From NCBI GenBank assembly GCA_949841355.1, contig CATKZP010000014.1, positions 1-64,000 on the forward strand: 64,000 nucleotides of DNA, written 5' to 3'. Made by a program: the position numbers and the translations under genes. The DNA is from an uncultured Oscillospiraceae bacterium. Lineage in GTDB: Bacteria > Bacillota > Clostridia > Oscillospirales > Oscillospiraceae. This document shows positions 543 to 15,064 of the stretch, in pieces (position 1 is the first letter of the stretch; each line of letters opens with the position of its first letter). The notes under the pieces are model-generated. The model saw only the letters and a program-made list of their open reading frames with translations. It did no database searches and was not told the origin of the DNA.

Positions 543-559
543 ATGCCTCACTCGATAAA

Positions 560-1687
560 ATGCTCAGAGAAGTCGAGTGGGGCGAATACAGGTTGGGCGA
601 TTTGTTTGAGGTGTGTACATATAAGAAACGGTTTGACGCAAATAAAGTTTCCGTTCTTGGAAACGGAGAGTATCCTTACATTGTCAGGATGTCTTCGGAT
701 AACGGTCAAAAGGGATTTATTAACGAAGATAAAGATTTCTTGAATGATGGAAACACATTATCTTTTGGGCAGGATACTGCAACCATATTTTATCAGGAAA
801 GGCCATATTTTACTGGGGATAAAATAAAAGTGTTAAAGTGCAAATACCCGCATTTCGGAAAACAAAATGCTCAATTTTTTGTTGCGGCTATATCTCGAGC
901 TTTTCATCATTATTCTTGGGGAACCTCAAGCTACAGTGTTGAAATGATAGAGGGGCAAAAAGTGAGCCTGCCTGTTAAAAACGGGGAGATAGATTTTCAC
1001 TTTATGGAAAAATTTGTTGCTGAGCTGGAGGCTAAGCGGATTACCGAGCTGGAGGCTTATCTTTTAGCGACAGGACTTACAGATTATTTCTTGACAGTAG
1101 AGGAAGAAAAAGCACTACAGGAACTCAATACCCATAAAATGAGCTTGTTTAGGATTGGCAACCTGTTCGAAAGAGTCAAAGTAAATAAACTGCCCTATAA
1201 GGCAAATGATTTACCAAAAACGCCAACGGAAGAGAATATACTTCCATGTCTAACATCCAGTTTCCATAATCAAGGCTTAAACTACTATATTCCGGTGAAA
1301 GGCACTACTGTACTCAAGAATGTGATTTCTATCCCCTCAAATAGTGATGTATATCGAGCATACTTTCAATCAAGAGATTTCACAGTTTTATCGGATGCCT
1401 ATGCAATCAGGTGGAAATATACAGAAGCTCCCTTATCGTCTAAGCAATACCTGTTCTTTGTGCAGTGCATCAATAAGGTCACAGATTTGCCGACTTTTTC
1501 CTATAAGAACAAGCTGGGTGGTTGGAATGTAGTAAAAGATCTGTACATAGCGCTACCGATCAAGGATCGAGAGATTGACCTGCCTTTTATGGATTTGTTA
1601 ATTTCCGCCCTTCAAAAGTTGATTATCAAAGACGTTGTGCTGTATGTTGAAGCAAAAGTAAATGCTACAAAAAATGGTTGTCAATAG
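560..1687 (+). CDS. hsdS: Type I restriction-modification specificity (S) subunit
   Basis: A 375-aa protein with two target-recognition halves. Residues ~5-140 (EWGEYRLGDLFEV onward) and ~190-350 (HKMSLFRIGNLFERV onward) each begin with the same 'lfriGdLFe' pattern. Each ends with a predicted helical stretch (FMEKFVAELEAK and FMDLLISALQKL), the conserved spacer coiled coil. Family members recognise the two halves of a split DNA target and guide HsdM and HsdR. The ATG at 560 is the first usable start after an in-frame TGA at 524; no strong ribosome site precedes it, so coupling to hsdM translation is likely. No hsdR is visible in the window. The gene is AT-rich like its partner. Confidence 0.85.
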   Translation: MLREVEWGEYRLGDLFEVCTYKKRFDANKVSVLGNGEYPYIVRMSSDNGQKGFINEDKDFLNDGNTLSFGQDTATIFYQERPYFTGDKIKVLKCKYPHFGKQNAQFFVAAISRAFHHYSWGTSSYSVEMIEGQKVSLPVKNGEIDFHFMEKFVAELEAKRITELEAYLLATGLTDYFLTVEEEKALQELNTHKMSLFRIGNLFERVKVNKLPYKANDLPKTPTEENILPCLTSSFHNQGLNYYIPVKGTTVLKNVISIPSNSDVYRAYFQSRDFTVLSDAYAIRWKYTEAPLSSKQYLFFVQCINKVTDLPTFSYKNKLGGWNVVKDLYIALPIKDREIDLPFMDLLISALQKLIIKDVVLYVEAKVNATKNGCQ

Positions 1688-2339: not shown

Positions 2340-3491
2340 CTATTTCAGACGCATGGAGCTGGAAATTACCATTTTCATCACCTCGGAGGTCCCTTCATAG
2401 ATCTCGGTGATTTTTGCGTCGCGCATCATGCGCTCCACGGCATACTCCCGGGCATACCCATAGCCGCCCAGCAGCTGGACGCAGCCACGGGTCACCTGAT
2501 TGGCCACATCGGAGGCCAGCAGTTTGGCCATGGCGGCATAGGTGCTGTAGTTTTGCCCCTGATCCTTGGCAACGGCGGCGCGGTAGGTCATCAGGCGGGC
2601 TGCGTCCACCATGGTCTGCATTTCAGCCAGCTTAAATTGGGTATTTTGGAACGCGGCAATGGGGCGGCCGAACTGCACGCGCTCTTTCACATAGCGGACA
2701 GCCTCGTCAATGGTGCCCTGGGCGATGCCGACAGCTTGCGCGGCAATGCCGATCCGCCCGCCGTCCAGCGTTTTCATGGCGATTTTGAACCCTGTGCCTG
2801 CTATGCCGCCCAGCAGGTTTGCAGCGGGAACGCGCACGTCCTGATAGGTGACCGCCGCATTGGACGCGGCGCGGATGCCCATGCGGGGGATGTCGGGGCT
2901 GACGGTGACGCCCGGGGTGCTGCGGTCCACCAGGAAGGCGGACATGCCTTTGGAGGCCGGGAGGGACTGATCCGTGAGGGCGAACACCAAAAAGGTGTCG
3001 GCAAAGGCGGAGTTGGTGGTAAAAATCTTCTCGCCGTTGATGACGTAATGCTCACCGTCTTTTTCCGCCGTGGTGCGGGCTCCGGCCACATCGGAGCCGG
3101 CGTTGGGCTCGGTCAGGCCGAAGCAGCCAATTTTGCTGCCGTTTGCCAGGGGGCGCAGCCAGAGCTGTTTTTGCTCCTCGGTTCCGAATTCGTTGATGGC
3201 GGAGGCGCATAGAGAGGTGTGGACCGAAATGGTCAGGCCGGTGCTGGCGTCCACCTTGGACATCTCCTCTATGCATAATGCGTAGGACAGCACGTCGGCT
3301 CCCGCCCCGCCGTACCTTTTCTCAAAGGGAATGCTGAAAAAACCGTGTTCCTTCATCTCCTGAAGGAGGGCCATATCGAATTCTTCCCGCTCGTCCATCT
3401 CCCGGGCCAGAGGCTTTACGCGTCCCTGGGCAAAGCTGCGGTACAGCTGCTGGAGCTGTTGATGCTGGGGGGACAATGTAAAATCAAGCAT
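2340..3491 (-). CDS. Short-chain acyl-CoA dehydrogenase (butyryl-CoA dehydrogenase type)
   Basis: A 383-aa protein, full length for the flavin acyl-CoA dehydrogenase family. N-terminal helical domain with EEMSKVDASTGLTISVH; FAD-binding middle domain with FGLTEPNAGSDVAGARTTA and EKIFTTNSA; C-terminal helical domain ending KITEIYEGTSEVMKMVISS, which carries the catalytic glutamate (YEGTSE). It interconverts crotonyl-CoA and butyryl-CoA or a close homologue. Last gene of the minus-strand operon, 33 bp after the crotonase gene. No electron-transfer flavoprotein genes (etfAB) are adjacent, so electrons must go to an Etf encoded elsewhere. Start supported by an AAAGGAA ribosome site. The exact acyl chain preference cannot be read from sequence. 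Confidence 0.9.
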   Translation of the reverse strand: MLDFTLSPQHQQLQQLYRSFAQGRVKPLAREMDEREEFDMALLQEMKEHGFFSIPFEKRYGGAGADVLSYALCIEEMSKVDASTGLTISVHTSLCASAINEFGTEEQKQLWLRPLANGSKIGCFGLTEPNAGSDVAGARTTAEKDGEHYVINGEKIFTTNSAFADTFLVFALTDQSLPASKGMSAFLVDRSTPGVTVSPDIPRMGIRAASNAAVTYQDVRVPAANLLGGIAGTGFKIAMKTLDGGRIGIAAQAVGIAQGTIDEAVRYVKERVQFGRPIAAFQNTQFKLAEMQTMVDAARLMTYRAAVAKDQGQNYSTYAAMAKLLASDVANQVTRGCVQLLGGYGYAREYAVERMMRDAKITEIYEGTSEVMKMVISSSMRLK

Positions 3492-3524
3492 GAGGCGTGA
3501 TTCCTTTCGTTGAAATTGTGATGG

Positions 3525-4304
3525 TCACCGGCCCTGGAAGGCCGCTTCCCGCTTTTCCAGGAAGGCGGACATCCCTTCGATGCGGTCCGATGCCTGGAAG
3601 CAGGTGGTATAAGCCTCGGCCTCATAGGCGATGCCGGAGCTCATGTCGGTGTCCTGAGCCGTGTTAATGGCGCACTTGGCCATGAGGATTGCCACGGGGG
3701 CCTTGGAGAGGATGAGCTGAGCGATCCGCTCGGCCTCGCCCATCAGCGCTTCGGGAGGAACGACCTTCTGCACCAGGCCGATGCGCAGGGCCTCCTGGGC
3801 GGAGATGTGTTCCCCGGTCATGATGAGGTATTTCGCCATTCCCTTTCCCACCAGCCTGGGCAGGCGCTGGGTGCCGCCAAAGCCGGGGATGATGCCCAGA
3901 TTGACCTCTGGCTGGCCGAACTTGGCTTTTTCGGAGGCGACGCGGATGTCGCAGGCCATGGCCAGCTCGCAGCCGCCGCCCAGCGCAAAGCCGTTCACCG
4001 CCGCGATGACGGGCTGGCGGAGATGTTCCACATAGTCCATCAGCCGCTGGCCGTACATAGTGAAGTCCCGGCCGGGAAGCACAGCAAAGTCTCGCATGGC
4101 GCCGATGTCGGCCCCCGCCACAAAGGAGCGGCCGTTACCGGTGAGAATCACGCAGCCGATGCCGGAGTTGTTGTTGATGGACTGAAAACAGTCCAAAAGC
4201 TCGGAGATAACCGCGGCGTTCAGCGCGTTGAGTGCCGCAGGGCGGTTGATGGTAACATAGGCCAGCCGGCCCTGTGTCCGGTATTCCACAAATTGATAGT
4301 CCAT
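3525..4304 (-). CDS. Enoyl-CoA hydratase / crotonase
   Basis: A 259-aa crotonase-fold enzyme that hydrates crotonyl-CoA to 3-hydroxybutyryl-CoA, or the reverse. Oxyanion-hole segment SFVAGADIGAM near residue 65; both catalytic glutamates are present in GGGCELAMACD (~110) and FGQPEVNLGIIPGFGGTQRL (~130). Length and motifs match crotonases of the clostridial butyrate pathway. It is preceded by a GGGAGGG ribosome site and lies 16 bp after the dehydrogenase gene, in the same sigma-54-controlled operon. Confidence 0.92.
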   Translation of the reverse strand: MDYQFVEYRTQGRLAYVTINRPAALNALNAAVISELLDCFQSINNNSGIGCVILTGNGRSFVAGADIGAMRDFAVLPGRDFTMYGQRLMDYVEHLRQPVIAAVNGFALGGGCELAMACDIRVASEKAKFGQPEVNLGIIPGFGGTQRLPRLVGKGMAKYLIMTGEHISAQEALRIGLVQKVVPPEALMGEAERIAQLILSKAPVAILMAKCAINTAQDTDMSSGIAYEAEAYTTCFQASDRIEGMSAFLEKREAAFQGR

Positions 4305-4319
4305 GCTTCACCCTCCCAT

Positions 4320-5171
4320 TCAGTATTTGAAAAAGCCTTCTCCGGTCTTTTTGCCCAGCTTACCGGCGCGCACCATCTTTTTCAGTAGCGGAGCGGGGCG
4401 GTATTTGCTGTCGGCATACTCCCGGTAGAGCACCTCCATCACAGCCAGCAGCACGTCCAGGCCGATGAGATCTGCCAAGGCCAGCGGTCCCATGGGGTGG
4501 TTGCAGCCAAACTTCAGGCCGTTGTCAATGTCTTCGGCGGTACCAACGCCCTCTTCCAGCAGGAAAATGGCCTCGTTGAGCATGGGGTCTAGGACACGGT
4601 TGACGATGAAGCCCGCCTTGTCCAGCGACAGGATGGTGACCTTGTTCATCCGTCTGCCGATGGCCATGACCGTGTCGATGGTTTCCTGGCTGGTGGAGCA
4701 GCCTTTTACCACCTCCAACAGCTTCATCACAGGGGCGGGATTGAAAAAGTGCATCCCAATCACCTTGTCCGGCCGGCCGGTGGCTGACGCGATCTCGGTG
4801 AGGGAGATGGAGGAGGTGTTGGAAGCCAGAATTACGTCGGGTGCGGCAGCCTGGTCCAGGGAGGCGAAGATCTCTTTTTTCAGCTCCACCTGCTCTACCG
4901 CAGCTTCCACCACAAGGTCCGCCCGGGCTGCGGCCTTCAGCGTGTCCGCCACGGCGACGGCCTGGACGGCGGTGTCAAAGACGGCCTGCTCCAGCTTTCC
5001 CTTTGCCAGCAGCTTGGACAGGTTGGCCTGAATGCGTTCCGAGGCTTTGGCGGCCGCGCCGGGGAGCGTATCGAACAGCAGCACACGATAGCCGGAGACG
5101 GCGGCCACTTGAGCGATGCCGGTCCCCATCTGTCCGGCTCCTACCACGCCGATGGTTTTGATTTCTCTCAT
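4320..5171 (-). CDS. hbd: 3-hydroxybutyryl-CoA dehydrogenase
   Basis: A 283-aa NAD(P)-dependent dehydrogenase. The N-terminal Rossmann fold starts GVVGAGQMGTGIAQVAA; the catalytic histidine sits in GMHFFNPAPVMKLLEVV; the C-terminal dimerisation domain contains KFGCNHPMGPLALADLIGLD. It oxidises or reduces 3-hydroxybutyryl-CoA/acetoacetyl-CoA. The length matches single-domain clostridial Hbd. Strong AAAGGAGGA ribosome site; 19 bp after the thiolase gene. The operon order thiolase-Hbd-crotonase-acyl-CoA dehydrogenase is a complete acetyl-CoA to butyryl-CoA module apart from Etf. Confidence 0.93.
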   Translation of the reverse strand: MREIKTIGVVGAGQMGTGIAQVAAVSGYRVLLFDTLPGAAAKASERIQANLSKLLAKGKLEQAVFDTAVQAVAVADTLKAAARADLVVEAAVEQVELKKEIFASLDQAAAPDVILASNTSSISLTEIASATGRPDKVIGMHFFNPAPVMKLLEVVKGCSTSQETIDTVMAIGRRMNKVTILSLDKAGFIVNRVLDPMLNEAIFLLEEGVGTAEDIDNGLKFGCNHPMGPLALADLIGLDVLLAVMEVLYREYADSKYRPAPLLKKMVRAGKLGKKTGEGFFKY

Positions 5172-5190
5172 AAATAGTTCCTCCTTTGGC

Positions 5191-6393
5191 TCAGATGCGT
5201 TCGACCAGGGTGGCGATGCCCTGGCCGCCGCCGATACACAGGGAGACCACGCCGTAGCGGACGTCCCGGCGCTCCATCTCCGCCATAATGGTCATGACCA
5301 GCCGTGCGCCCGTGGCGCCCACGGGATGGCCCAGGGCAATTGCGCCGCCGTTTACATTGACTTTTTCCATGTCCAGGCCCAGGTCTTTGACGCAGGCCAG
5401 CGCTTGGGCGGCAAAGGCCTCGTTGAGCTCCCACAGACCGATGTCCTCTTTTTTGAGCCCGGTTTTGGCCAGCAGCTTCTGTACGGCGTAGACAGGCGCG
5501 TAGCCCATGATGGAGGGGTGGACGCCCGCAGAGGCAAAGCCCCGCACGGCGCACTTGGGGACAAGGCCCAGCTCCCGGGCCTTGCCCAGGCTCATCATGA
5601 CCACGGCGGCCCCCTCGTCGTTGCAGGGAGAGGCGTTTCCCGCGGTGACCATGCCGGTGCCGTCGGTAAGGAAGCAGGGCTTCAGCCTCTGAAAATCCTC
5701 CAGCTTTGCGCCAAAGCGAATAGTCTCATCCGCGTCGAACACAACGACGCCTTTCTTGCCCTTGATTTCCACGGGCACAATGTCGTCTTTGAATTTGCCG
5801 GCGTTGGCGGCGGCCTCCGCTTTCTGATGGCTGGCCAGGGCAAACTCGTCCATCTGCTCCCGGGTGATGCCGCACTTTTTGGCTACGTTTTCGGCGGTGA
5901 TTCCCATGTGGTAGTGCATAAAGGGGTCTACGAGCCCATCGTACAGCATGCCGTCCTGAAGGGTGTCCGGCCCCATATATGCGCCGAAGCGGTGAGAGAT
6001 GGAAAGGTAGGGGATGCGGCTCATAGTGTCGCACCCGCCGGAGATGTAAATATCTCCCTCCTCCAGCATGATCTGCTGGGCGGTGATATTAATGGCCTTC
6101 AGCCCGGTGCCGCAGTTTTTGTTCACCGTCCACGCGGGCACTTCCTCCGGGCAGCCGGCACCCAGCGCCACCTGACGGGCGGAGTTGGCCCCAATGCCTG
6201 CCTGGAAATGGGTGCCGAACACCACTTCGTCCACCATGTCTCCGGTGATTCCCGCCCGCTTCATGGCCTCCCTGGCGCAGACAGCGCCCAGCTCCGGGCA
6301 GTTGATTTTACTGAGCGCGCCGCCAAATCTGCCGGTCGCTGTCCTCGCCGCGCTGACGATGACGGGCGTCCGGCTCTCCTCAATGTGATACAT
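5191..6393 (-). CDS. Acetyl-CoA acetyltransferase (thiolase)
   Basis: A 400-aa thiolase that condenses two acetyl-CoA to acetoacetyl-CoA or cleaves the latter. The acyl-accepting cysteine is in VNKNCGTGLKAI; the histidine motif is GGAIALGHPVGATGAR; the second catalytic cysteine is near the C-terminus in SLCIGGGQGIA. First gene of the minus-strand operon, with GGAGG just before the ATG. A perfect sigma-54 promoter lies about 85 bp upstream. In the degradative direction it would finish oxidation of crotonyl-CoA produced by the plus-strand operon. Confidence 0.93.
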   Translation of the reverse strand: MYHIEESRTPVIVSAARTATGRFGGALSKINCPELGAVCAREAMKRAGITGDMVDEVVFGTHFQAGIGANSARQVALGAGCPEEVPAWTVNKNCGTGLKAINITAQQIMLEEGDIYISGGCDTMSRIPYLSISHRFGAYMGPDTLQDGMLYDGLVDPFMHYHMGITAENVAKKCGITREQMDEFALASHQKAEAAANAGKFKDDIVPVEIKGKKGVVVFDADETIRFGAKLEDFQRLKPCFLTDGTGMVTAGNASPCNDEGAAVVMMSLGKARELGLVPKCAVRGFASAGVHPSIMGYAPVYAVQKLLAKTGLKKEDIGLWELNEAFAAQALACVKDLGLDMEKVNVNGGAIALGHPVGATGARLVMTIMAEMERRDVRYGVVSLCIGGGQGIATLVERI

Positions 6394-6475
6394 GATCGTT
6401 CCTCCTGTTCGTAATGTATTAAATGGACATCGGACCTTGCGTTGCTGCTGTAGAAACCGTCAGTCTATATGGTGA

Positions 6476-6492
6476 AGCAAAATCCGTGCCAA
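6476..6492 (-). promoter_or_regulatory. Sigma-54 (-24/-12) promoter of the thiolase operon
   Basis: On the minus strand the sequence is TTGGCACGGATTTTGCT, matching the RpoN consensus TTGGCACG-N4-TTGCW at every defined position, with GG and GC at the required spacing. Predicted transcript start ~6466, leaving a ~70-nt leader before the thiolase ATG. It lies in the 190-bp space shared with the divergent activator gene. Confidence 0.88.
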
Positions 6493-6529
6493 CTCTCAGC
6501 CGACGCGGCACGGCGCTCAGCTGCATGGC

Positions 6530-6558
6530 TTTACACTAGGGGCGGCTGGTGTTAAAAT
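6530..6558 (+). promoter_or_regulatory. Sigma-A promoter of the enhancer-binding protein gene
   Basis: TTTACA and TAAAAT are separated by 17 bp, 27 bp before the activator's ATG. The activator would thus be made by the housekeeping holoenzyme while its targets need sigma-54. Confidence 0.7.
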
Positions 6559-6584
6559 GATAAAAAGAAAGGGGGCGGGCGTAT

Positions 6585-7985
6585 ATGACGGAATGGCGCA
6601 AAGAGATGCTTCGCGTGGAGGATTGGGAGCACATCGCGGATATTTTTCAGGATGGAATTTATATTACCAACTCCGCCGGACTCACCCTGCGGGTGAATTC
6701 CGCCTATGAGAAAATGACGGGAATCGCGGCGGAAAAGGTGGTGGGGCGGTACATGGAAGACATTGTCCGGGAGGGCATCTTGTCTTCCTCCATCACCCAA
6801 AAGGTGATCTCAACCCGCGGCGAAATCATCCGGGAACAGATCTCTTACAGCGGCGCGCACGTGACGCTGCGGGGTATTCCCATCTACGAAAACGGGGATA
6901 TTGCCCTGGTGGTCACCATTGTGCGGGACATTACGGCTATGAACAGCTTGCAGCGGGAGTTGGATCAAAACCGTTCGATCATGGAGCAATACAAATCACG
7001 TTTGGAGGAGCTGGACGGCAATAAGAATTTCGTGGCGGTCAGCCAGGAATTCCGCGCCGCCGTGGCGCTGGCGCAGCAGGTAGCCAAGGTGGACACGACG
7101 GTGCTTATTCTGGGGGAGTCTGGGACCGGCAAGGAGGTCCTGGCCCGGGAAATCCACGAGAAAAGCCACCGGCGGGAGCAGGCGTTTCTCAAAACAAACT
7201 GCGGCGCTATTCCGGAGAACCTTTTGGAGTCAGAGCTGTTCGGCTATGTGAGCGGTGCCTTCACCGGGGCGCAAAAGGGCGGTCATGTGGGGCTGTTCGA
7301 GGCGGCCAGCGACGGGACCCTCTTTTTGGACGAGATCGGTGACATGCCCCTCCACCTGCAGGTCAAGCTGCTGCGGGTGCTTCAGGAGAGAACGGTCACC
7401 CGCATCGGCTCCACAAAGGCCATTCCCATCAATACGCGAATCATCGCCGCCACCAACCGGGACCTGGTGCAGATGGTACGGCGAAAGGAGTTCCGTGAGG
7501 ACCTGTATTACCGGCTCAACATTGTGGCGGTGAAGTCCCCGCCGCTGCGGGAACGCAAGGAGGACATCCCGGGCTTGGTGGATTTTTTCGTGAAAAAGTT
7601 GAATAAGAAGTATCATTTTTCCAAACGGCTTTCGCCCCAGCTGATTGCGGCCTTTATGGAGTACGACTGGCCGGGAAACGTCCGGGAGCTGGAGAACATG
7701 ATTGAGCGGCTGCTGGTGACCAGCAGCGCAGATTTCATCACCACGGAAAGCAGCAGGCTGCCCTGGACCGCCGCAGGGACGGCGGCTATCCCGGAGGAGA
7801 TCGCGGGTTGCGCCGAGGACATCTCTCTTCGAGAGGCGGTGGAGCGGCTGGAGCGGCAAATGCTCGCCAACGCCGTAAAGCGGTGCAGCACCACCTATGA
7901 GATCGCGGCAGCGCTGCAGATCAGTCAGCCGTCCGTATCCCGGAAGCTGAAAAAATATGGTCTGCGAATGGCGGACCAGGCGTGA
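6585..7985 (+). CDS. Sigma-54-dependent transcriptional activator with PAS sensor
   Basis: A 466-aa enhancer-binding protein. An N-terminal PAS domain (~8-120; DGIYITNSAGLTLRVNSAYE) senses an unknown signal. The central AAA+ domain has Walker A GESGTGKE (~175), the sigma-54-contacting GAFTGA loop in YVSGAFTGA (~223), Walker B GTLFLDEIGD (~245) and an arginine-rich second region of homology. A C-terminal HTH (~438-458; AAALQISQPSVSRKLKKYG) binds upstream sites. No receiver domain, so it is not a two-component regulator. It sits between two operons that both have -24/-12 promoters, making it their likely activator (inference). Ribosome site AAAGGGGGCGG; the gene ends in a strong hairpin terminator. 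Confidence 0.93.
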   Translation: MTEWRKEMLRVEDWEHIADIFQDGIYITNSAGLTLRVNSAYEKMTGIAAEKVVGRYMEDIVREGILSSSITQKVISTRGEIIREQISYSGAHVTLRGIPIYENGDIALVVTIVRDITAMNSLQRELDQNRSIMEQYKSRLEELDGNKNFVAVSQEFRAAVALAQQVAKVDTTVLILGESGTGKEVLAREIHEKSHRREQAFLKTNCGAIPENLLESELFGYVSGAFTGAQKGGHVGLFEAASDGTLFLDEIGDMPLHLQVKLLRVLQERTVTRIGSTKAIPINTRIIAATNRDLVQMVRRKEFREDLYYRLNIVAVKSPPLRERKEDIPGLVDFFVKKLNKKYHFSKRLSPQLIAAFMEYDWPGNVRELENMIERLLVTSSADFITTESSRLPWTAAGTAAIPEEIAGCAEDISLREAVERLERQMLANAVKRCSTTYEIAAALQISQPSVSRKLKKYGLRMADQA

Positions 7986-7993
7986 TCTATTAC

Positions 7994-8051
7994 TGAATCA
8001 CAATTTAATTATGAATCAGGGAAACGGCCCGCATGATTCAACAATGAATCA
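7994..8051. repeat. Four TGAATCA boxes between activator gene and CoA-transferase promoter
   Basis: TGAATCA occurs at 7994-8000, 8012-8018 and 8045-8051, and its complement TGATTCA at 8034-8040. The last two are also in the arms of the terminator stem. The cluster lies 170-230 bp upstream of the -24/-12 promoter, a usual distance for enhancer-binding protein sites. No copies were noticed upstream of the divergent promoter. Binding is inference. Confidence 0.35.
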
Positions 8052-8067
8052 TGCGGGCCGTTTTTTA
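8022..8067 (+). terminator. Intrinsic terminator of the activator gene
   Basis: A perfect 19-bp stem (AAACGGCCCGCATGATTCA / TGAATCATGCGGGCCGTTT, loop ACAA) ends in TTTTTTA. It insulates the activator gene from the downstream sigma-54 operon. Confidence 0.9.
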
Positions 8068-8222
8068 GCAGGCTTCGGCGGCCGTCCGGCTGAATTGGAA
8101 AATGAGGAAAAAATGTATGACTGCCCATGGCGGATAAAAAGAAGGCGCTAAGGCTCACGCCGGCCGCAAATTTTCGAGGAACTGAGTGCGCGCCCCTGCG
8201 GACTGGCAGTTGTGCAAAAAAG

Positions 8223-8239
8223 TTGGCACAGTTTTTGCT
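8223..8239 (+). promoter_or_regulatory. Sigma-54 (-24/-12) promoter of the CoA-transferase/4-HB-CoA dehydratase operon
   Basis: TTGGCACAGTTTTTGCT matches the RpoN consensus (TGGCAC, N5, TTGCT) with exact spacing. Predicted start ~8250, ~50 nt before the ATG at 8301. No better sigma-A promoter is visible between the terminator at 8067 and the gene. Confidence 0.9.
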
Positions 8240-8300
8240 CAAAGTATATAAATGCTGAACAAAGCGCAATGCCGATAAACAGTTAGGAGGGATAGATTCC

Positions 8301-9494
8301 ATGCATGGAGCAAGCGCCTTACAGGGGCTGAAGGTCCTTGACTTTACCAGAGTGTACTCAGGCCCCTACTGTACTATGCTGCTGGCCGACCTGGGCGCGG
8401 AGGTCATCAAGGTGGAGGCCGTAGGCAGGGGAGACGATACACGCAGCTTTTACCCCATCAAAAACGGACAGAGCGGATACTTCACCTATCTTAACCGCAG
8501 CAAAAAGAGCGTCACACTGAACCTGAAGTCCCAGGAGGGAAGGCGGGCCGCGATGGAGCTGGCGCAGTGGGCGGACGTGGTGGTGGAAAACTTTTCCGCG
8601 GGGACAATCGCCAAGCTGGGCCTGGGCTACGAGGCGGTGAAGAAGGTCAACCCGGAGGTCATTTACGCCTCCATCTCCGGCTTCGGACAGTCCGGCCCCT
8701 ACAGCAGGAAGGCGGCCTATGACGCCGTGGCTCAGGCCATGGGCGGCATGACCTATCTGACCGGCTACCCCGATGCTGCGCCGGTCAAGGTGGGTCCAGC
8801 CATTTCCGATGCGGCCACAGGCGTTCACACCGTGGTGGCTATTCTGGCAGCGCTGCATTACCGGGAAAAAACCGGGCGGGGGCAGTACATCGACATCGCC
8901 ATGCTGGACACAGTGTTTTCCATGCTGGAAAATTCGGTTCCCATCATGACCATGCTGGGCGAGAACCCCCAGCGTATCGGCAACGCGAATCCAGGTTCCG
9001 CGCCGTACAATATGTACCGCACCGCCGATGGAATGGTGGTGATCGCCACCGCCAACGACTCCCTGTTTCGGCGGCTGGCGGGAGTGATGGGGCGGCCGGA
9101 TCTGCCAGACGATCCCCGCTTCAGCACCAACCCCAGCCGCAAGGCCCACGAAAAGGAGATCGACGCCATTGTGGAGCAGTGGACCCAGAGGCACAGCACC
9201 GCGGAAGTGGAGCGGCTGCTGGATGAAGTGGGCGTCCCCGTGGCTGCGGCCAGATCGGTGGAACAGCTGGTGGAGGACCCGCAGCTGCTCCACCGGGAAA
9301 TGATCGTGGAGCACGAGGTCCCCGGAGTGGGGTGGGTCAAATTTCCGGCCAACCCACTGCGTCTGCAGCTGACTCCGCCGGACCCATCCCGCCGCGCGCC
9401 GGAGCTGGGGGAGCACACAGCGGAAATTCTCAGCGCAGTCCTGCACTACAGCGACGCCCAGATCCAGCAGATGAGGGAAAACCAGGCCATTTAA
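8301..9494 (+). CDS. Family III CoA-transferase (CaiB/BaiF type)
   Basis: A 397-aa class III acyl-CoA transferase. These enzymes move CoA between carboxylic acids through an aspartyl-CoA intermediate. The N-terminal signature is LQGLKVLDFTRVYSGPYCTMLLADLGAEVIKVE (shown in part); the likely catalytic aspartate is in YIDIAMLDTVFSML (~200), equivalent to the MxD motif of formyl-CoA transferase. First gene of the plus-strand sigma-54 operon, with TAGGAGGG before the ATG and only 19 bp before the dehydratase gene. It probably activates the acid that becomes the dehydratase substrate. Described 4-hydroxybutyrate CoA-transferases are of family I, so use of a family III enzyme is unusual. The substrate is inferred from context only. 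Confidence 0.88.
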   Translation: MHGASALQGLKVLDFTRVYSGPYCTMLLADLGAEVIKVEAVGRGDDTRSFYPIKNGQSGYFTYLNRSKKSVTLNLKSQEGRRAAMELAQWADVVVENFSAGTIAKLGLGYEAVKKVNPEVIYASISGFGQSGPYSRKAAYDAVAQAMGGMTYLTGYPDAAPVKVGPAISDAATGVHTVVAILAALHYREKTGRGQYIDIAMLDTVFSMLENSVPIMTMLGENPQRIGNANPGSAPYNMYRTADGMVVIATANDSLFRRLAGVMGRPDLPDDPRFSTNPSRKAHEKEIDAIVEQWTQRHSTAEVERLLDEVGVPVAAARSVEQLVEDPQLLHREMIVEHEVPGVGWVKFPANPLRLQLTPPDPSRRAPELGEHTAEILSAVLHYSDAQIQQMRENQAI

Positions 9495-9513
9495 TTTGAG
9501 GAGGAATGCCATT

Positions 9514-10956
9514 ATGATGAACGCGCAGCAATACAAAGACAGCTTGAAAAGCCTGCACCCGCTGATTTACTGCAGCGGCAGGAAAATTGAGAACGTAGTG
9601 GACGACCCCATGACGGCTCCCCATGTGAATTCTGCGGCCCTCACCTATGAGCTGGCCTTTGACCCGGAGTATGAGGACCTGATGACCGCCACCTCCAGCC
9701 TCACGGGGAAGAAAATCAACCGCTTCACTCATATCCACCAGAGCACGGAGGACCTGGTGAAAAAGGTAAAGATGATGCGCATGATCGGTCAAAAGACAGG
9801 CACCTGCTTCCAGCGCTGCGTGGGCTTTGACGCCATGAACGCTTCCTTTATCACCACCTATAAAATCGACAAAAAGTACGGCACGAACTATCATGAGCGG
9901 CTGAAGAAGTATATAGAATACGTTCAGGAGAGTGACATCATGGTGGCTGGCTCCATGACCGATCCCAAGGGCGACCGGAGTAAAAAGCCCAGCCAGCAGG
10001 CCGACCCGGATTTGTTCGTCCACATTGTGGAGCGCCGGGAGGACGGTATTGTGGTCCGGGGAGCTAAGGCCCACCAGACCGGCATGGTGAATTCCCACGA
10101 GATGCTGATTCTGCCCACCACCAACCTGGGACCCGACGACGCGGACTATGCCGTGGCCGCCGCCATCCCTGTGGACGCGCCGGGGGTGATTCATTTCTTT
10201 GGACGCCAGACCAACGAAAACCGCCGCCTGGAGGGCGATATCGACTGCGGCAACGCGCAATACGCCATCGTGGGCGGCGAGACGCTCACCGTTCTCGACG
10301 ACGTGTTCGTACCCTGGAACCGGGTGTTTATGTGCGGCGAGTACGATCTGGCCCAGGAATTTGTGGAGACCTTCGCCTCCTACCACCGGCAGAACTATGG
10401 CGGCTGCAAGGTGGGCGTGGCCGATGTAATCATCGGGGCCGCCGCAGCGATGGCGGAGTACAATGGCTGTCACAAGGCATCCCATATCAAGGATAAACTG
10501 GTGGAGATGGTCCACCTGTCCGAGACTATGCACTGCTGCTCCATCGCCTGCTCCGCCATGGGCCATAAGACCGAGGCGGGCAGCTATTACGTGGACACTC
10601 TGCTGGCCAATACGGTGAAGCTCAACTGTACCCGCACCATGTACGAGATTTCCCGCCTGGCCCACGACATCGCCGGCGGCTTCATCGCCACCCTTCCCTA
10701 TGAAACCGACTACCGCTCCGATGTCGGCCACGAGTATATCGACAAGTATTTCGCCGGAGACGCCCGGTTTAAAACCGAGGACCGCATCCGCATGGCCCGC
10801 CTGCTGGAGAATATGACCGGCGGCACCGCCTTGGCGGAGTCCATGCACGGCGCAGGCTCGCCCCAGGCCATGCGGGTGATGATCCAGCGCCAGACCAACT
10901 GGGAGCAGAAAAAGACTTATGCCAAGAAGCTGGCAAAAATCAGCACGGAGGATTGA
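9514..10956 (+). CDS. abfD: 4-hydroxybutyryl-CoA dehydratase / vinylacetyl-CoA delta-isomerase
   Basis: A 480-aa radical flavoenzyme converting 4-hydroxybutyryl-CoA to crotonyl-CoA; it also isomerises vinylacetyl-CoA. All four [4Fe-4S] ligands known from the Clostridium aminobutyricum enzyme are recognisable: C98 and C102 in TGTCFQRCVG, and the His/Cys pair in SYHRQNYGGCKVG with the same H-x6-C spacing. These ligands separate it from the related flavin hydroxylases (HpaB), which lack the cluster. The start at 9514 follows a GAGGAGG ribosome site; an upstream TTG at 9496 overlaps that site and is rejected. Neighbours fit: a CoA-transferase upstream, a C4-acid carrier downstream, and divergent genes that use crotonyl-CoA. 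No 4-hydroxybutyrate dehydrogenase or succinate semialdehyde gene is nearby. Confidence 0.93.
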   Translation: MMNAQQYKDSLKSLHPLIYCSGRKIENVVDDPMTAPHVNSAALTYELAFDPEYEDLMTATSSLTGKKINRFTHIHQSTEDLVKKVKMMRMIGQKTGTCFQRCVGFDAMNASFITTYKIDKKYGTNYHERLKKYIEYVQESDIMVAGSMTDPKGDRSKKPSQQADPDLFVHIVERREDGIVVRGAKAHQTGMVNSHEMLILPTTNLGPDDADYAVAAAIPVDAPGVIHFFGRQTNENRRLEGDIDCGNAQYAIVGGETLTVLDDVFVPWNRVFMCGEYDLAQEFVETFASYHRQNYGGCKVGVADVIIGAAAAMAEYNGCHKASHIKDKLVEMVHLSETMHCCSIACSAMGHKTEAGSYYVDTLLANTVKLNCTRTMYEISRLAHDIAGGFIATLPYETDYRSDVGHEYIDKYFAGDARFKTEDRIRMARLLENMTGGTALAESMHGAGSPQAMRVMIQRQTNWEQKKTYAKKLAKISTED

Positions 10957-11024
10957 CGCACCCTTGCGGCCCCGCGCAGGAGCGGGCGGGTCTTCCTGAC
11001 AGGGAGAGGCATATAAGGATCGGT

Positions 11025-11297
11025 TTGAAATACTGCGGCGGCTGTAATCCAAACTATGAGCGCAGCGGCATTGTGAAGCGGGCCAGATCGGAATATCCCC
11101 GCGCCGAATTCACACCATATGATAAGGCCGGGTATTATGACCTGGTGCTGGTGATCTGCGGCTGCCTGGAGGAGTGCTTTACATTTGCCTGCTCCAACAG
11201 CCGCCACGGCGCCATTCCCATACGCGCCCCAGAGGAGTACCGGCGGCTCCAAGCGTTTATGGAGGCTGTGGGAGAACGCGCCGAAACTACGAACTGA
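11025..11297 (+). CDS. Small cysteine-rich protein with CGGCNP motif, function unknown
   Basis: About 90 residues, beginning KYCGGCNPNYERSG, with further cysteines in LVICGCLEECFTFACSNSRHG. The CxxC plus C-x-C-x3-C pattern would suit a metal or Fe-S site, though none is proven. The start is uncertain: TTG at 11025 has AAGGA 5 nt upstream; the frame is open back to a TTG at 10953 overlapping the dehydratase stop, but those residues look non-coding. It sits between the dehydratase and the carrier on the same strand, so it is part of the sigma-54 operon and may serve the dehydratase, for instance in cluster maintenance or electron supply (inference). I do not recognise a characterised family. 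Confidence 0.65.
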   Translation: MKYCGGCNPNYERSGIVKRARSEYPRAEFTPYDKAGYYDLVLVICGCLEECFTFACSNSRHGAIPIRAPEEYRRLQAFMEAVGERAETTN

Positions 11298-11342
11298 CGC
11301 TGCTTGATATGATTCCAGCTTTCACACAAGAGGAGGTAAAAC

Positions 11343-12722
11343 ATGGATTCCACAAAAGAGAGAGATAATATCCTGACCCGTTTTGGTACCGCTATGGGCA
11401 ATATTTCCATGAAGTATATGCCGGATGCGGCGACCTTCGCTGTGATTTTTACCATCATCGCCTTTGTGGGGGGCATTGTGCTGGCTAAGCAGACCCCCAT
11501 GCAGATGGTGGGCCACTGGTACACCGGCTTTTGGAGCCTGCTGGCCTTCAGCATGCAGATCGCCCTGGGCGTGACCACCGGCTCGGCCATTGCCCACCAC
11601 CCCACCGTCAAACGCTGGATACGTGCCGCCTGCGACAAGCCCAAGACCGGCGCGCAGGGCGCGGCTCTGGCCTGTGTGTTCGGCATACTGGCCCACTATA
11701 TCCACTGGGGGCTGGGCATCATCGTGGGCGCCATCGCCTCTCTGGAAATTGCGCGGGCCCTGCGGCGCAAGGGTGTGAAATTCCACTACGGACTGATCGT
11801 CGCCGCCGGTTTCACCGGAGAGATGTGCTGGCATGGCGGTCTGTCCGCCTCCGTGGGCCTGACCATTGCTCAGCCCGGTCATTTTCTGGAGGCCGAGATG
11901 GGCGTGATCCCCTTCATCAACTACCTGGTCAATCCCATGAACATCATCCTTCTCATTGCCTTCGCCGTCATTCCGCCTGTCATCTGCTATGTGCTCCATC
12001 CCAAGGAGGACAAATGCCCCGAGCTGCGTCCCGAGACCATCGCCGTGCTGGACGAGCCCGACGTGGAGGCCAAAAAGCTGGATCTGGCCAGCGCCTCCAC
12101 AGGAGACCGCATCAGCCACAGCAGGATTCTGGGCTGGGCGCTGGCGGCCATCGGCTGGGTGTTCCTCATCAATCATTTCATCAAGAACGGCTTCTCGCTG
12201 GATATGGACGTGGTTAACACCATCTTCCTGTTTGTGGGCATTGCCATGTACGGCGACCTGACCCAGTATGTGGCGGCGGTGCGCAACTCCATCGGCGGCA
12301 TCACCGGCATCGTGTTCCAGTTCCCCCTGTACGGCGGCGTGCTGGGAATGGTGCGCTACTCCGGCCTGGTGGCCATTCTGGCCAACGGTCTGGCCTCCAT
12401 CAGCACCCAGCTCACCTTCCCTCTGGTTACCTTCCTGACGGCAGCCATCGTCAACCTGTTCGTCCCCTCCGGCGGCGGGCAGTGGGCGGTACAGGGGCCC
12501 GTGTCCATCGCCTCGGCCAAGCTCATGGGCGCGGACCTGCTGAAAACCTCCCTGTGCGTGGCCTACGGCAATACCTGGACCAACATGGCGCAGCCCTTCT
12601 GGGCCATCGCCACGCTGGGTATCTGCGGCCTGAAGCCCAAGGATATCATGGGCTATACCTGGGCCATCATGCTGCTGAGCGGCCCCATCTTCATGCTGGG
12701 GGTCACCTTCCTGCCGGTTTGA
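11343..12722 (+). CDS. atoE: AtoE-type short-chain fatty acid transporter
   Basis: A 459-aa polytopic membrane protein of the AtoE (short-chain fatty acid transporter) family. About 11-12 hydrophobic segments are visible, with loops such as HYIHWGLGIIVGAIASLE, GFTGEMCWHGGLSASVGLTIAQPGH (in part) and FVPSGGGQWAVQGP. AtoE is linked to uptake of acetoacetate and other short-chain acids in Escherichia coli, where it too is driven by a sigma-54 activator (AtoC). Here it probably imports the substrate of the CoA-transferase, e.g. a hydroxy- or unsaturated C4 acid. Strong AGAGGAGGT ribosome site; 45 bp after the CGGCNP gene. Confidence 0.9.
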   Translation: MDSTKERDNILTRFGTAMGNISMKYMPDAATFAVIFTIIAFVGGIVLAKQTPMQMVGHWYTGFWSLLAFSMQIALGVTTGSAIAHHPTVKRWIRAACDKPKTGAQGAALACVFGILAHYIHWGLGIIVGAIASLEIARALRRKGVKFHYGLIVAAGFTGEMCWHGGLSASVGLTIAQPGHFLEAEMGVIPFINYLVNPMNIILLIAFAVIPPVICYVLHPKEDKCPELRPETIAVLDEPDVEAKKLDLASASTGDRISHSRILGWALAAIGWVFLINHFIKNGFSLDMDVVNTIFLFVGIAMYGDLTQYVAAVRNSIGGITGIVFQFPLYGGVLGMVRYSGLVAILANGLASISTQLTFPLVTFLTAAIVNLFVPSGGGQWAVQGPVSIASAKLMGADLLKTSLCVAYGNTWTNMAQPFWAIATLGICGLKPKDIMGYTWAIMLLSGPIFMLGVTFLPV

Positions 12723-12785
12723 CCTGTGGCAGGACGCCGCTGTGGATTAACCCCAATTCGCTGAAAAGAAAAAGGAGCTGATATA

Positions 12786-13553
12786 ATGAAGAATTTGTTT
12801 GACTTGACGGGCAAGGTCGCCGTTGTGGTGGGCGGCGCCACCGGCCTGGGTCGGGGCATGGCCTGCGCGCTGGCGGACGCCGGGGCCACCGTGGTGATAG
12901 CCAGCCGCCGGCAGGAGGTTTTGGAGCGGGCCGCCGGTGAGATGTCCGCCGAAACCGGCGGGAGAGTGGTTCCCATTCAGCTCAACGTGACCTCGCTGCC
13001 CGCCATCCGTTCCTTTGTGGAAGAGGTGGACCGTCGGTTTGGCAGGATCGACATTCTCATCAACAGCGCGGGCATCAATATCCGCAAATCCGCCCTGGAC
13101 TTTGAAGCGGAGGACTGGGATAAGGTCACCGACACCCAGATCAAGTATGTGTTCTTTATGGACCAGGCGGTGGGCCGGTACATGGTGGAGCACGGGATCA
13201 AAGGGCGCATCATCAACGTGGGCTCTTTGTCCAGCGCCATCGGGTTGAAAAACATGGTAGCCTACTGCGCCTCTAAGGGGGCGATTGTTCAGCTGACCAA
13301 GGCGCTGGCCAACGAGTGGGCACAGTACGGCATCTGCGTCAACGCCATCGGGCCGGGCTACTACTTCACTGAGATGACCGAGCCGCTACTGAAAGACCCT
13401 GCCGTGGTGCGCGGGTATGAGGAGAAAATCCCCATGGCCCGGCTGGGACTGCCCGCCGATCTGGCCACGACGGCGGTATATCTGGCGTCGGACGCCTCCA
13501 GCTATGTCACCGGCCAGATTGTCTATGTGGACGGCGGGTGGCTGATTAACTGA
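12786..13553 (+). CDS. SDR-family oxidoreductase
   Basis: A 255-aa classical short-chain dehydrogenase. Nucleotide-binding motif GGATGLGRGMA near residue 15; NSAGIN structural motif; catalytic serine in NVGSLSS; Tyr/Lys pair in YCASK. The C-terminus YVDGGWLIN is typical of the gluconate 5-dehydrogenase/3-oxoacyl reductase branch. Last gene of the sigma-54 operon, with AAAAGGAG before the ATG. It could oxidise a hydroxy acid or hydroxyacyl-CoA belonging to the pathway, but its substrate cannot be deduced. No iron-dependent 4-hydroxybutyrate dehydrogenase is present, so this SDR is one candidate for the alcohol/aldehyde or hydroxyacid step. Confidence 0.9.
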   Translation: MKNLFDLTGKVAVVVGGATGLGRGMACALADAGATVVIASRRQEVLERAAGEMSAETGGRVVPIQLNVTSLPAIRSFVEEVDRRFGRIDILINSAGINIRKSALDFEAEDWDKVTDTQIKYVFFMDQAVGRYMVEHGIKGRIINVGSLSSAIGLKNMVAYCASKGAIVQLTKALANEWAQYGICVNAIGPGYYFTEMTEPLLKDPAVVRGYEEKIPMARLGLPADLATTAVYLASDASSYVTGQIVYVDGGWLIN

Positions 13554-13607
13554 TGTGTTTTCTCCCCACCTGCGCAGGCGGAGGTGGGGGCCGGACCGGC
13601 AAAAAGA

Positions 13608-13637
13608 CCATGCGCAGCTTGCTGCGCATGGCTTTTT
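13608..13637 (+). terminator. Terminator of the CoA-transferase operon
   Basis: Perfect 11-bp stem CCATGCGCAGC / GCTGCGCATGG with a TT loop, followed by CTTTTT and preceded by AAAAAGA. A GC-rich hairpin (CCCCACCTG...GAGGTGGGG) lies just before it at ~13564-13590. Confidence 0.85.
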
Positions 13638-13696
13638 GCACTGTCTCTGGGGGGGCAGCAGAGAGATATGACAGATGAGAACTGGGGGCGATAGGT

Positions 13697-15064
13697 ATGG
13701 ATCTGGACATTTCCGTGAAGCAGACACAGAACCTTTCCCCGCAGATGGTCCAGGCCATGAAAATATTGCGAATGGGCGCCCAGGAGCTGACGCAGTACCT
13801 GGAAGAGGCCGCGGAGGAAAATCCCGTGCTGGAGGTGGAAATCAGCTGCGGCGTTCCGGAACAGGTTCCCGAGCTGTGCCGGAGGCTGGAGTGGCTGGCG
13901 GCAGGGGACGTCCAGAACGGCTGCTACCACCGGCAGGACGCCGAGGAGGCGTATGAAGCGCTGGAGCATTATGGCGTGACGGACGACAGGGAGGAAAGTC
14001 TGTACCGCCATATCGCCGCGCAGCTGCAAGGGCTGAACCTGGAGCCGGAGCTGGCAGCCTGCGCCGGATTTCTGGCTGCGGATCTGGACCGGAATGGCTG
14101 GCTGAGCGGGCCGCTGGAGGTGCTGGCGGCGGAGATTCATCAGCCGCTGTCCCGGATGGAGCGGGCGCTGGAGGTGCTGCAGTCCCTGGAGCCGGCGGGG
14201 GTGGCGGCCCGAGACCTGTTGGAGTGCCTGTGCTTGCAGCTGCTGCGCCTGCGGCCAGTGGACAAGCTGGCGCTGGCCATTGCCACAGACCACCTGGACG
14301 CTCTGGCCAAGCATCATTATGGATATATCGCCAGGCAGCTGGAGGCGGATCAGGAGGCAGTGGAACGGTCATGCCGGCTGATCCGAACGCTGAATCCCCG
14401 CCCGGCCTCCAGGTTTGAGTCTCTGGAGCATGTCGTGTATATCACGCCGGATGTCATCGCCACAGTGCGCGGCGGCCGCCTGGAACTGGTGGCCAACGAC
14501 CGGATCGTCCCTGTGTTGGGCATCAGCGCCTACTACACCCGGATGCTGAAGGCGGGGGATGTGCCAGAGGTGAGGGAATATCTGACGGAAAAGGTGCGCC
14601 AGGCGAAATACTTGCTTCAGGCGGTGGAGCAGCGAAAGAGCACCCTGCTGGCCTGTGCCCGGTGTATCGCGGAGATCCAGCAGGATTTTTTCCGGAAGGG
14701 AGCGGGCAGCCTGGTTCCCATGTCTCTGCAGGATGTGGCGCGGCGGGTGGGCATCCACGAGTCCACCGTCAGCCGGGCCGTTGGCAATAAGTACCTCCAA
14801 TGTCCGTCGGGGCTATATCCGTTCCGTGTGTTCTTTTCCCGCGGGCTGGGTGGAGAGACGGGCGGAAAAGCATCCCCTGACGCGGCCAAAGCTCTGCTGA
14901 AAGAGCTGATCCAGCAGGAGGACAAGGCGCGGCCGCTCTCCGACCAAAAGCTGTGCGGGCGTATGGCGGCCCAGGGCTGCGCGATTTCCCGACGCACGGT
15001 GGCCAAATACTGCGGGGAGCTCCAAATTCCCGGCATGTCCCAGCGCCGGACAAAGGGCGGGTGA
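13697..15064 (+). CDS. rpoN: RNA polymerase sigma-54 factor
   Basis: A 455-aa RpoN. The Gln/Leu-rich activator-interacting region I lies at the N-terminus (KQTQNLSPQMVQAMKILRMG). The core-binding domain is in the middle, an HTH is in MSLQDVARRVGIHESTVSRAVGNKYLQ (shown in part), and the RpoN box SRRTVAKYCGEL is at ~431, where the consensus is ARRTVAKYRE. It directs polymerase to -24/-12 promoters and needs an AAA+ activator. Located 140 bp after the sigma-54-driven operon but behind a terminator, so presumably expressed separately; no clear promoter was seen. It directly matches the regulatory logic of its neighbours. Confidence 0.95.
   Translation: MDLDISVKQTQNLSPQMVQAMKILRMGAQELTQYLEEAAEENPVLEVEISCGVPEQVPELCRRLEWLAAGDVQNGCYHRQDAEEAYEALEHYGVTDDREESLYRHIAAQLQGLNLEPELAACAGFLAADLDRNGWLSGPLEVLAAEIHQPLSRMERALEVLQSLEPAGVAARDLLECLCLQLLRLRPVDKLALAIATDHLDALAKHHYGYIARQLEADQEAVERSCRLIRTLNPRPASRFESLEHVVYITPDVIATVRGGRLELVANDRIVPVLGISAYYTRMLKAGDVPEVREYLTEKVRQAKYLLQAVEQRKSTLLACARCIAEIQQDFFRKGAGSLVPMSLQDVARRVGIHESTVSRAVGNKYLQCPSGLYPFRVFFSRGLGGETGGKASPDAAKALLKELIQQEDKARPLSDQKLCGRMAAQGCAISRRTVAKYCGELQIPGMSQRRTKGG

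Follow-up and report, generated by a model that had tools for sequence, protein, structure and literature searches.

Which acid would be consumed, and under whose control, where a gene for a 4-hydroxybutyryl-CoA dehydratase stands beside a transcriptional activator, a sigma factor and a set of crotonyl-CoA genes? 4-Hydroxybutyryl-CoA dehydratase (AbfD) is a key enzyme of the metabolism of 4-aminobutyrate (GABA) to butyrate and of archaeal CO2 fixation. In the 4-aminobutyrate/4-hydroxybutyrate fermentation of Clostridium aminobutyricum, AbfD feeds crotonyl-CoA, and a family I CoA-transferase and an iron alcohol dehydrogenase take part. Here we describe an AbfD locus in a stretch of 64,000 nucleotides (positions 1-64000 of contig C14; "the window" means this whole analysed stretch) from the 2.76 Mb genome (44 contigs, 94.6% complete) of an uncultured Oscillospiraceae bacterium of the gut. 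Among named organisms, the nearest relatives of its AbfD gene occur in Oscillospiraceae, including Pseudoflavonifractor phocaeensis (94% identity). The minus strand carries acd, crt, hbd and thl (2340-6393), and the plus strand carries the gene of an enhancer-binding protein (EBP, 6585-7985) and then, at 8301-15064, genes for a family III CoA-transferase, AbfD, a small Cys-rich open reading frame (ORF), an AtoE-type transporter, a short-chain dehydrogenase/reductase (SDR) and RpoN. We propose, with a probability of about 0.68, that these genes form a substrate-induced sigma-54 regulon through which an imported short acid would be dehydrated by AbfD and converted to acetyl-CoA and butyryl-CoA.

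Sigma-54 promoters and activator sites

The original prediction placed the EBP gene between two operons, each with a -24/-12 promoter, with rpoN following, and both the genes and the two promoter elements were recovered where it had put them. The promoters of the thl operon (TTGGCACGGATTTTGCT, 6476..6492, minus strand) and of the CoA-transferase operon (TTGGCACAGTTTTTGCT, 8223..8239, plus strand) are exact genomic matches. The pattern TTGGCACN5TTGCT has two exact matches in the genome, one ahead of each operon, and none in the reversed control, and the shorter TGGCACN5TTGC has five, with one in the control. Based on Pfam and NCBIfam profiles and matches to solved chains (PDB), by which the families of the genes at 2340-15064 were assigned, the EBP (plus strand) has a PAS-AAA+-HTH architecture (Pfam PAS, Sigma54_activat and HTH_50) with GAFTGA at residue 224, and its best NCBIfam model is PrdR (433 bits vs a cut-off of 795). 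RpoN (13697..15064, plus strand) has a Sigma54_DBD domain (183 bits) and an RRTVAKYC box.

A palindrome, TGATTCA-N4-TGAATCA, was found to be common to the stretches upstream of the promoters of related loci (14 stretches, 170 bp each). Its only exact match in the genome is a predicted EBP-binding site, TGATTCAACAATGAATCA, at 8034..8051 (plus strand), which was outside the set from which the motif was learned because the window stretch used there started at base 8053. The distance from this site to the -24 element of the CoA-transferase promoter is 172 bp, which falls inside the 100-250 bp usual for activator sites in Clostridiales according to the portion of Nie et al. 2019 (PMC6615313) available to us, and thus supports its reading as an activator site. 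A second predicted site lies at 7983..8000 (plus strand, two mismatches). At up to two mismatches, the genome contains three such places (8034, exact, and 7983 and C4:118606 with two mismatches each), and the control one. In the window alone, five sites were found at up to three mismatches, where 1.7 are expected by chance and 2 of 100 shuffles reach five; this count is weak, so only the exact and the conserved sites carry weight.

The comparison of AbfD neighbourhoods that the original prediction had called for, extended to 80 related loci (numbered here with L), indicates that both the promoters and the palindrome are kept in close relatives. These loci, with gene starts from our own gene calling, were scanned for -24/-12 elements matching at least 11 of 12 positions. 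A family III CoA-transferase (at least 40% identity) is present in 11 of them, and in seven (L017, L018, L019, L021, L022, L023 and L030) an 11/12 or 12/12 site lies 12-154 bp ahead of it. L017, L018 and L019 have additional 12/12 sites ahead of thl, in L020 thl comes first in the order and the site lies ahead of it, and in L025 the site precedes an upstream gene of the cluster. Among 13 loci examined together with the window for the palindrome at up to two mismatches, three sites each were found in L017, L019, L022 and L023, four each in L018 and L021, one each in L025 and L030, and none in L006, L007, L020, L046 and L060. Single-base shuffles of L017-L019, the three loci shuffled, gave expected counts of 0.00-0.04; the counts in L017-L023 are not independent, because the motif was derived from these loci.

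In the window, the palindrome makes up the inner stem and loop of a predicted intrinsic terminator hairpin 3' of the EBP gene (8019..8066, plus strand, -37.2 kcal/mol, z -9.9). The same overlap is seen in L017, L018 and L019, that is, in all four loci examined that have this gene order; the outer stems of the four terminator-like hairpins are all different, and their z-scores range from -6.5 to -10.9.

AbfD and sigma-54 also occur together across genomes. In a sample of 295 genomes of the order, AbfD was found in 24 and a strong rpoN match (E <1e-20; 10 genomes with weaker matches excluded) in 18, and the two coincide in 11 genomes where 1.5 would be expected (hypergeometric 1.9e-9, not a clean probability because the genomes are related). 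The present genome (G000) is the only one in this sample with two strong rpoN matches, and each of the 57 genomes of Nie et al. has a single sigL as reported in the available part of PMC6615313. The sample includes four further genomes of the genus, and these carry neither AbfD nor strong rpoN nor the small Cys-rich protein discussed below (CGGC), which makes it probable that this set is an accessory trait.

A second, divergent AbfD system in the genome

The window AbfD (9514..10956, plus strand) is an HpaB-type protein (HpaB_N/HpaB) that scores 608 bits against 1u8v, as compared to 800 bits for a copy on contig C4 to which it is 58% identical. Positions C99, C103, H292, Y296, C299 and K300 are identical in all 109 rows of an alignment, two of which repeat the window and C4 genes, and Q101 and E455 are conserved in 104 and 108 rows. 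Among these are positions which we take, from the 1u8v literature, to be the cluster ligands (three Cys and one His) and the Tyr, Lys and Glu of the active site. A dehydratase activity of the 4-hydroxybutyryl-CoA type is therefore predicted for the window protein, in line with the radical dehydratase originally proposed. A quick maximum-likelihood tree was built from 107 sequences (midpoint root; support from the Shimodaira-Hasegawa-like approximate likelihood ratio test, SH-aLRT, without bootstrap). In it, the window AbfD falls inside a set of 76 rows (SH-aLRT 100) that leaves the C4 copy outside, and within this it belongs to a smaller set of eight, likewise with SH-aLRT 100, all of which are accompanied by a family III CoA-transferase.

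The neighbours of this branch are diverse, several of their names being read from sequence rather than from profile searches. Glutaconate-CoA-transferase-like genes accompany AbfD in L042, L046, L049 and L055, and SDR genes in others. Four-gene sets resembling 2-oxoacid:ferredoxin oxidoreductases lie directly 5' of AbfD in L024, L026, L054 and L056, and in L029 with CGGC between, which suggests that in these five loci the CoA ester is made by oxidative decarboxylation. The CoA ester thus seems to be supplied variously in this branch, by a family III CoA-transferase, a glutaconate-CoA-transferase-like pair or a 2-oxoacid:ferredoxin oxidoreductase. Among the 38 of the 80 loci in which AbfD is flanked on either side by 4 kb or more, an EBP homologue was found within 9 kb in 18, an SDR within 8 kb in 11, thl, hbd and crt all within 9 kb in nine, a family III CoA-transferase within 6 kb in six, an oxidoreductase pair within 4 kb in five, and glutaconate-type and family I-type CoA-transferases in four each. 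A NifU-like gene lies between the EBP gene and thl in L017 (6552-6887), L018 and L019 but not in the window, with its own 11/12 sigma-54-like site in L017 and L018 (in L018 it was named by similarity only). L021-L023 contain in addition an EutH-like permease and a nitrilase-like protein, and L021 and L023 a class III aminotransferase-like gene (all named by sight); these added genes possibly form an amine or GABA-type route.

The genome contains three AbfD genes, three strong EBP matches (five weaker AAA+ matches excluded) and two rpoN genes, the products of which are 55% identical. Each of the three AbfD genes has an EBP homologue at a distance of up to about 5 kb, and each of the two rpoN genes has an AbfD gene at up to 3 kb. 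GAFTGA is present in two of the three strong EBP matches, that of the window and that of L006, which has its own module on C4: an 11/12 promoter ahead of a GntP-type permease, AbfD and rpoN. The third system, L007, also on C4, is of the classical type and encodes an iron-alcohol-dehydrogenase-like protein (named from sequence), AbfD, a NifU-like protein, a fusion of CGGC with a FabA domain, an acetyl-CoA hydrolase/transferase (a family I-type CoA-transferase with profile-confirmed domains), an acyl-carrier-protein-like protein, LuxE and LuxC. GAFTGA is missing from its EBP homologue (L007 4285-5709), and the 20 kb examined yielded no -24/-12 site of at least 10/12, so this homologue may have lost its sigma-54 dependence. 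The AbfD proteins of L006 (10019-11470) and L007 (8887-10338) are identical, and their genes, 47 kb apart, differ at 10 DNA positions, none of them beyond the first third, which suggests a recent duplication or gene conversion. The claim that a family I CoA-transferase and an iron alcohol dehydrogenase are absent thus holds for the two window operons, where neither was found beside AbfD, but not for the genome, and the presence of a classical-type 4-hydroxybutyrate cluster elsewhere makes the window a second, divergent system.

The other genes of the two operons agree with the families originally named. Family III (CaiB/BaiF-type) CoA-transferase (8301..9494, plus strand) is covered over its full length by CoA_transf_3 (452 bits); its best solved chains are YfdE and succinate-hydroxymethylglutarate CoA-transferase, and every substrate-specific NCBIfam model stays under its cut-off. 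The AtoE-type short-chain fatty acid transporter (11343..12722, plus strand) matches SCFA_trans with 406 bits, and the SDR (12786..13553, plus strand) is near gluconate-5-dehydrogenase and KduD models (PRK08213 and KduD, under both cut-offs), with 1vl8, a gluconate 5-dehydrogenase, as its best solved chain. On the minus strand, thl (5191..6393), the first gene of its operon, encodes a thiolase (TIGR01930, 450 bits, above the cut-off of 240.55), followed by hbd for 3-hydroxybutyryl-CoA dehydrogenase (4320..5171; 3HCDH_N/3HCDH; NCBIfam 393 bits, cut-off 408), crt for crotonase (3525..4304; ECH_1; short-chain-enoyl-CoA hydratase 353 bits, cut-off 394) and, last, a butyryl-/acryloyl-CoA type acyl-CoA dehydrogenase (2340..3491; Acyl-CoA_dh domains), for which the best NCBIfam model is acryloyl-CoA reductase (450 bits, under the cut-off of 640). 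This crotonyl-CoA module had been called complete; acd, crt, hbd and thl are indeed present, but the operon contains no etfAB, and genes for electron-transfer flavoprotein (ETF) lie elsewhere in the genome. Since contig C13 has a separate crt-hbd-bcd-etfB-etfA operon (named by similarity to window genes and L019), the window operon represents a second copy without ETF. Another match to ETF-alpha falls within a 636-codon acyl-CoA-dehydrogenase-like gene, an apparent fusion, in L130 (8112-10022, G000:C6). At the left edge of the window (3-1687), ORFs resemble, by sight, part of a restriction-modification system.

Proposed pathway and its alternatives

From the genes, the promoters, the activator site, their conservation and the linkage of CGGC to AbfD, all of which rest on sequence, we infer the reactions, the substrate, the induction and the EBP binding as follows. 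The PAS-type EBP would sense a signal, bind the palindromic sites just 3' of its own gene, and open the sigma-54 promoter of the CoA-transferase operon and probably the thl promoter as well. AtoE would bring in a short hydroxy- or oxo-acid, the two forms of which may be interconverted by the SDR, and the family III CoA-transferase would form a 4-hydroxyacyl-CoA ester. From this ester AbfD would remove the 4-hydroxyl through a ketyl-radical mechanism. The resulting crotonyl-CoA-type product would be oxidised and cleaved to acetyl-CoA by Crt, Hbd and Thl, while part of it would be reduced to butyryl-CoA by the acyl-CoA dehydrogenase, with ETF encoded elsewhere. The imported acid is most likely 4-hydroxybutyrate or a close 4-hydroxy/4-oxo acid. 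The original proposal of a C4 acid is compatible with this, although the sequence does not fix the substrate; the AbfD branch excludes the classical-type copy, and its CoA-ester supply varies.

Genome-unique promoters, the activator site, their conservation and the co-occurrence of AbfD with rpoN speak for a sigma-54 regulon around an AbfD-type enzyme and a crotonyl-CoA module, but several observations weigh against it. There is no strong rpoN match in 13 of the 24 AbfD-positive genomes of the order sample, so sigma-54 is not generally required for AbfD, and L060 and L063 carry family III CoA-transferase and AbfD without any -24/-12 site of at least 11/12. L019, a close relative whose AbfD is 92% identical to that of the window, lacks an SDR at this locus and carries a symporter-like protein instead of AtoE; thus neither is essential to the core. 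With the C13 operon present, the crotonyl-CoA copy of the window could serve another acyl-CoA. Finally, the window has no activator site near the thl promoter, its predicted sites lying on the CoA-transferase side only.

This last point would also be expected if the two operons were separate, with the EBP controlling only the CoA-transferase operon and thl-hbd-crt-acd being under another activator. We regard such an arrangement as unlikely, considering that the only other GAFTGA EBP among the three strong matches sits with its own module on C4, and that in L017 and L018 sites of up to two mismatches occur on the side of the EBP gene that faces thl. The GAFTGA-bearing EBP, the -24/-12 promoters and upstream activator sites are all in place for an EBP regulon, with predicted activator sites for the CoA-transferase operon only, and for this reason we grade it no higher than likely that this EBP also controls the thl operon, as the single regulator originally proposed for both operons.

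With respect to the substrate, a secondary 4-hydroxy or 4-oxo acid such as 4-hydroxyvalerate or levulinate could take the place of 4-hydroxybutyrate: the SDR would reduce the 4-oxo acid, AbfD would dehydrate the CoA ester, and the thiolase would yield acetyl-CoA and propionyl-CoA. This would fit an SDR closest to hydroxy/oxo-acid dehydrogenases, a thiolase that scores 450.1 bits with the BktB model (cut-off 565) vs 450.2 with the general acetyl-CoA C-acyltransferase model, and a genome that already has a classical-type 4-hydroxybutyrate cluster. It is nevertheless rather improbable, as neither operon contains a propionyl-CoA gene, the 92% identical AbfD of L019 belongs to a locus without an SDR, and in the part of the literature that we covered we found no test of AbfD on such substrates. 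Very improbable is a sugar-acid or 2-oxo-acid route, in which the ester of this branch would come from 5-hydroxy-2-oxopentanoate-type acids and the window would use the free 4-hydroxy acid they release, because the genes that suggest it (the oxidoreductase-like genes 5' of AbfD in L024, L026, L054, L056 and L029, and IlvD/Edd-like and GlcD-like proteins in L053 and a UxaA-like protein in L047, both sister loci) were named from reading sequences, not by profile searches, and have no counterpart in the window operons or in L017-L019 as mapped.

The CGGC protein and relation to known systems

The small Cys-rich protein (11013..11297, plus strand; start codon uncertain, ATA 11013 or TTG 11025), referred to here as CGGC, has about 90 residues. 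CGxCxP and Cx3C are invariant in 50 sequences; the invariance of CGxCxP is partly by construction, because most members were collected with a CGxC pattern, which leaves Cx3C unaffected. A set of 16 members gave no significant Pfam, NCBIfam or PDB sequence match, and Rdx/SelWTH and DGC, known families of small Cys proteins, were set beside it by profile and fold. The fold model is a small alpha/beta structure (predicted local distance difference test score, pLDDT, 85; predicted template modelling score, pTM, 0.77), less certain around the Cys motifs, for which no convincing relative was found.

Profiles of CGGC built from AbfD neighbours were searched against whole genomes in two samples that share G000 and a few others. 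In the order sample (295 genomes), the 19 genomes with CGGC all belong to the 24 that are AbfD-positive. Each of the 21 matches follows an AbfD gene in the same orientation, at a distance of no more than about 410 bp; in G084 this AbfD gene is a fragment located at the end of a contig. The second sample spans the phylum and comprises 398 genomes, 83 of them AbfD-positive if weak ones are counted. All 26 genomes with CGGC in this sample are AbfD-positive, and they contain 31 matches: 26 are found downstream of AbfD in the same orientation at up to 570 bp, two on the opposite strand within 0.92 kb, two at 7.2 kb, and one on a contig without a listed AbfD. Conversely, CGGC is near 28 of the 59 AbfD genes listed (at least 50% identity, from at most four scored candidates per genome) and is thus not universal among them. 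By a search for its motif, CGGC was located no more than 9 kb from AbfD in 49 of the 80 loci, several on short contigs, including loci from Archaeoglobi, Chloroflexota and one member of Xanthobacteraceae. We infer that CGGC probably helps assemble or protect AbfD, and the NifU-like genes accompanying AbfD, as in L007, would favour a role in cluster assembly. A broader and tentative proposal, to which we give somewhat less than even odds, is that CGGC is a dedicated accessory protein for cluster or flavin assembly or repair in many bacterial and archaeal 4-hydroxybutyryl-CoA dehydratases, and that the window AbfD represents a second functional branch using 4-hydroxyacyl-CoA from family III CoA-transferases or 2-oxoacid oxidation, not the GABA route.

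The window resembles the C. aminobutyricum pathway in its predicted AbfD-type dehydration into crotonyl-CoA, and differs in that a family III CoA-transferase and an SDR replace the family I CoA-transferase and the iron alcohol dehydrogenase. According to the available part of Table 1 of Nie et al., the XanR regulon of Clostridium consists of abfD-nifU-hyp-ach-golB and acp-caiC-luxEC, whereas CrbR controls crt-hbd-thl-bcd, YctR caiB-bcd and AhcR atoE-hbd. Like the window, the XanR regulon places abfD, beside a hypothetical gene, under an EBP and sigma-54. Its gene list is matched by the gene content of L007, which differs in its EBP homologue without GAFTGA and in yielding no -24/-12 site at 10/12 or better. 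The order abfD, nifU, hypothetical gene and acetyl-CoA hydrolase/transferase is not that of the window, which, unlike the XanR regulon, has a family III CoA-transferase, AtoE, an SDR, a crotonyl-CoA operon and a divergent AbfD, and no NifU-like gene. The CrbR, YctR and AhcR regulons of Clostridiales, as listed in that part of Table 1, do not include abfD. Furthermore, COG2368, the family including 4-hydroxybutyryl-CoA dehydratase, is described in the part of PMC12316311 available to us as sigma-54-regulated primarily in Clostridia. The bbu cluster, which converts gamma-butyrobetaine to crotonyl-CoA, shares with the window CoA-transferases, a C4 elimination and crotonyl-CoA as product, but its BbuA is acyl-CoA-dehydrogenase-like, with about 10% identity or less to 4-hydroxybutyryl-CoA dehydratase (PMC8364193, available part).

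The principle of regulation is thus already known, and sigma-54 control of abfD, crt-hbd-thl-bcd, caiB-bcd and atoE-hbd has been published, so that the novelty originally claimed for the arrangement applies, as far as our search reached, to the exact set of genes. Within the part of the literature covered by our search, we found no description of this combination under one EBP, a family III CoA-transferase with a divergent AbfD, a doubled rpoN, an activator site within a terminator, or the linkage of CGGC to AbfD. With its regulator, binding site and two promoters, the predicted circuit is complete, so that induction offers a direct test of the substrate. A small protein restricted to AbfD would point to an overlooked need for maturation of this enzyme, and could aid engineered pathways.

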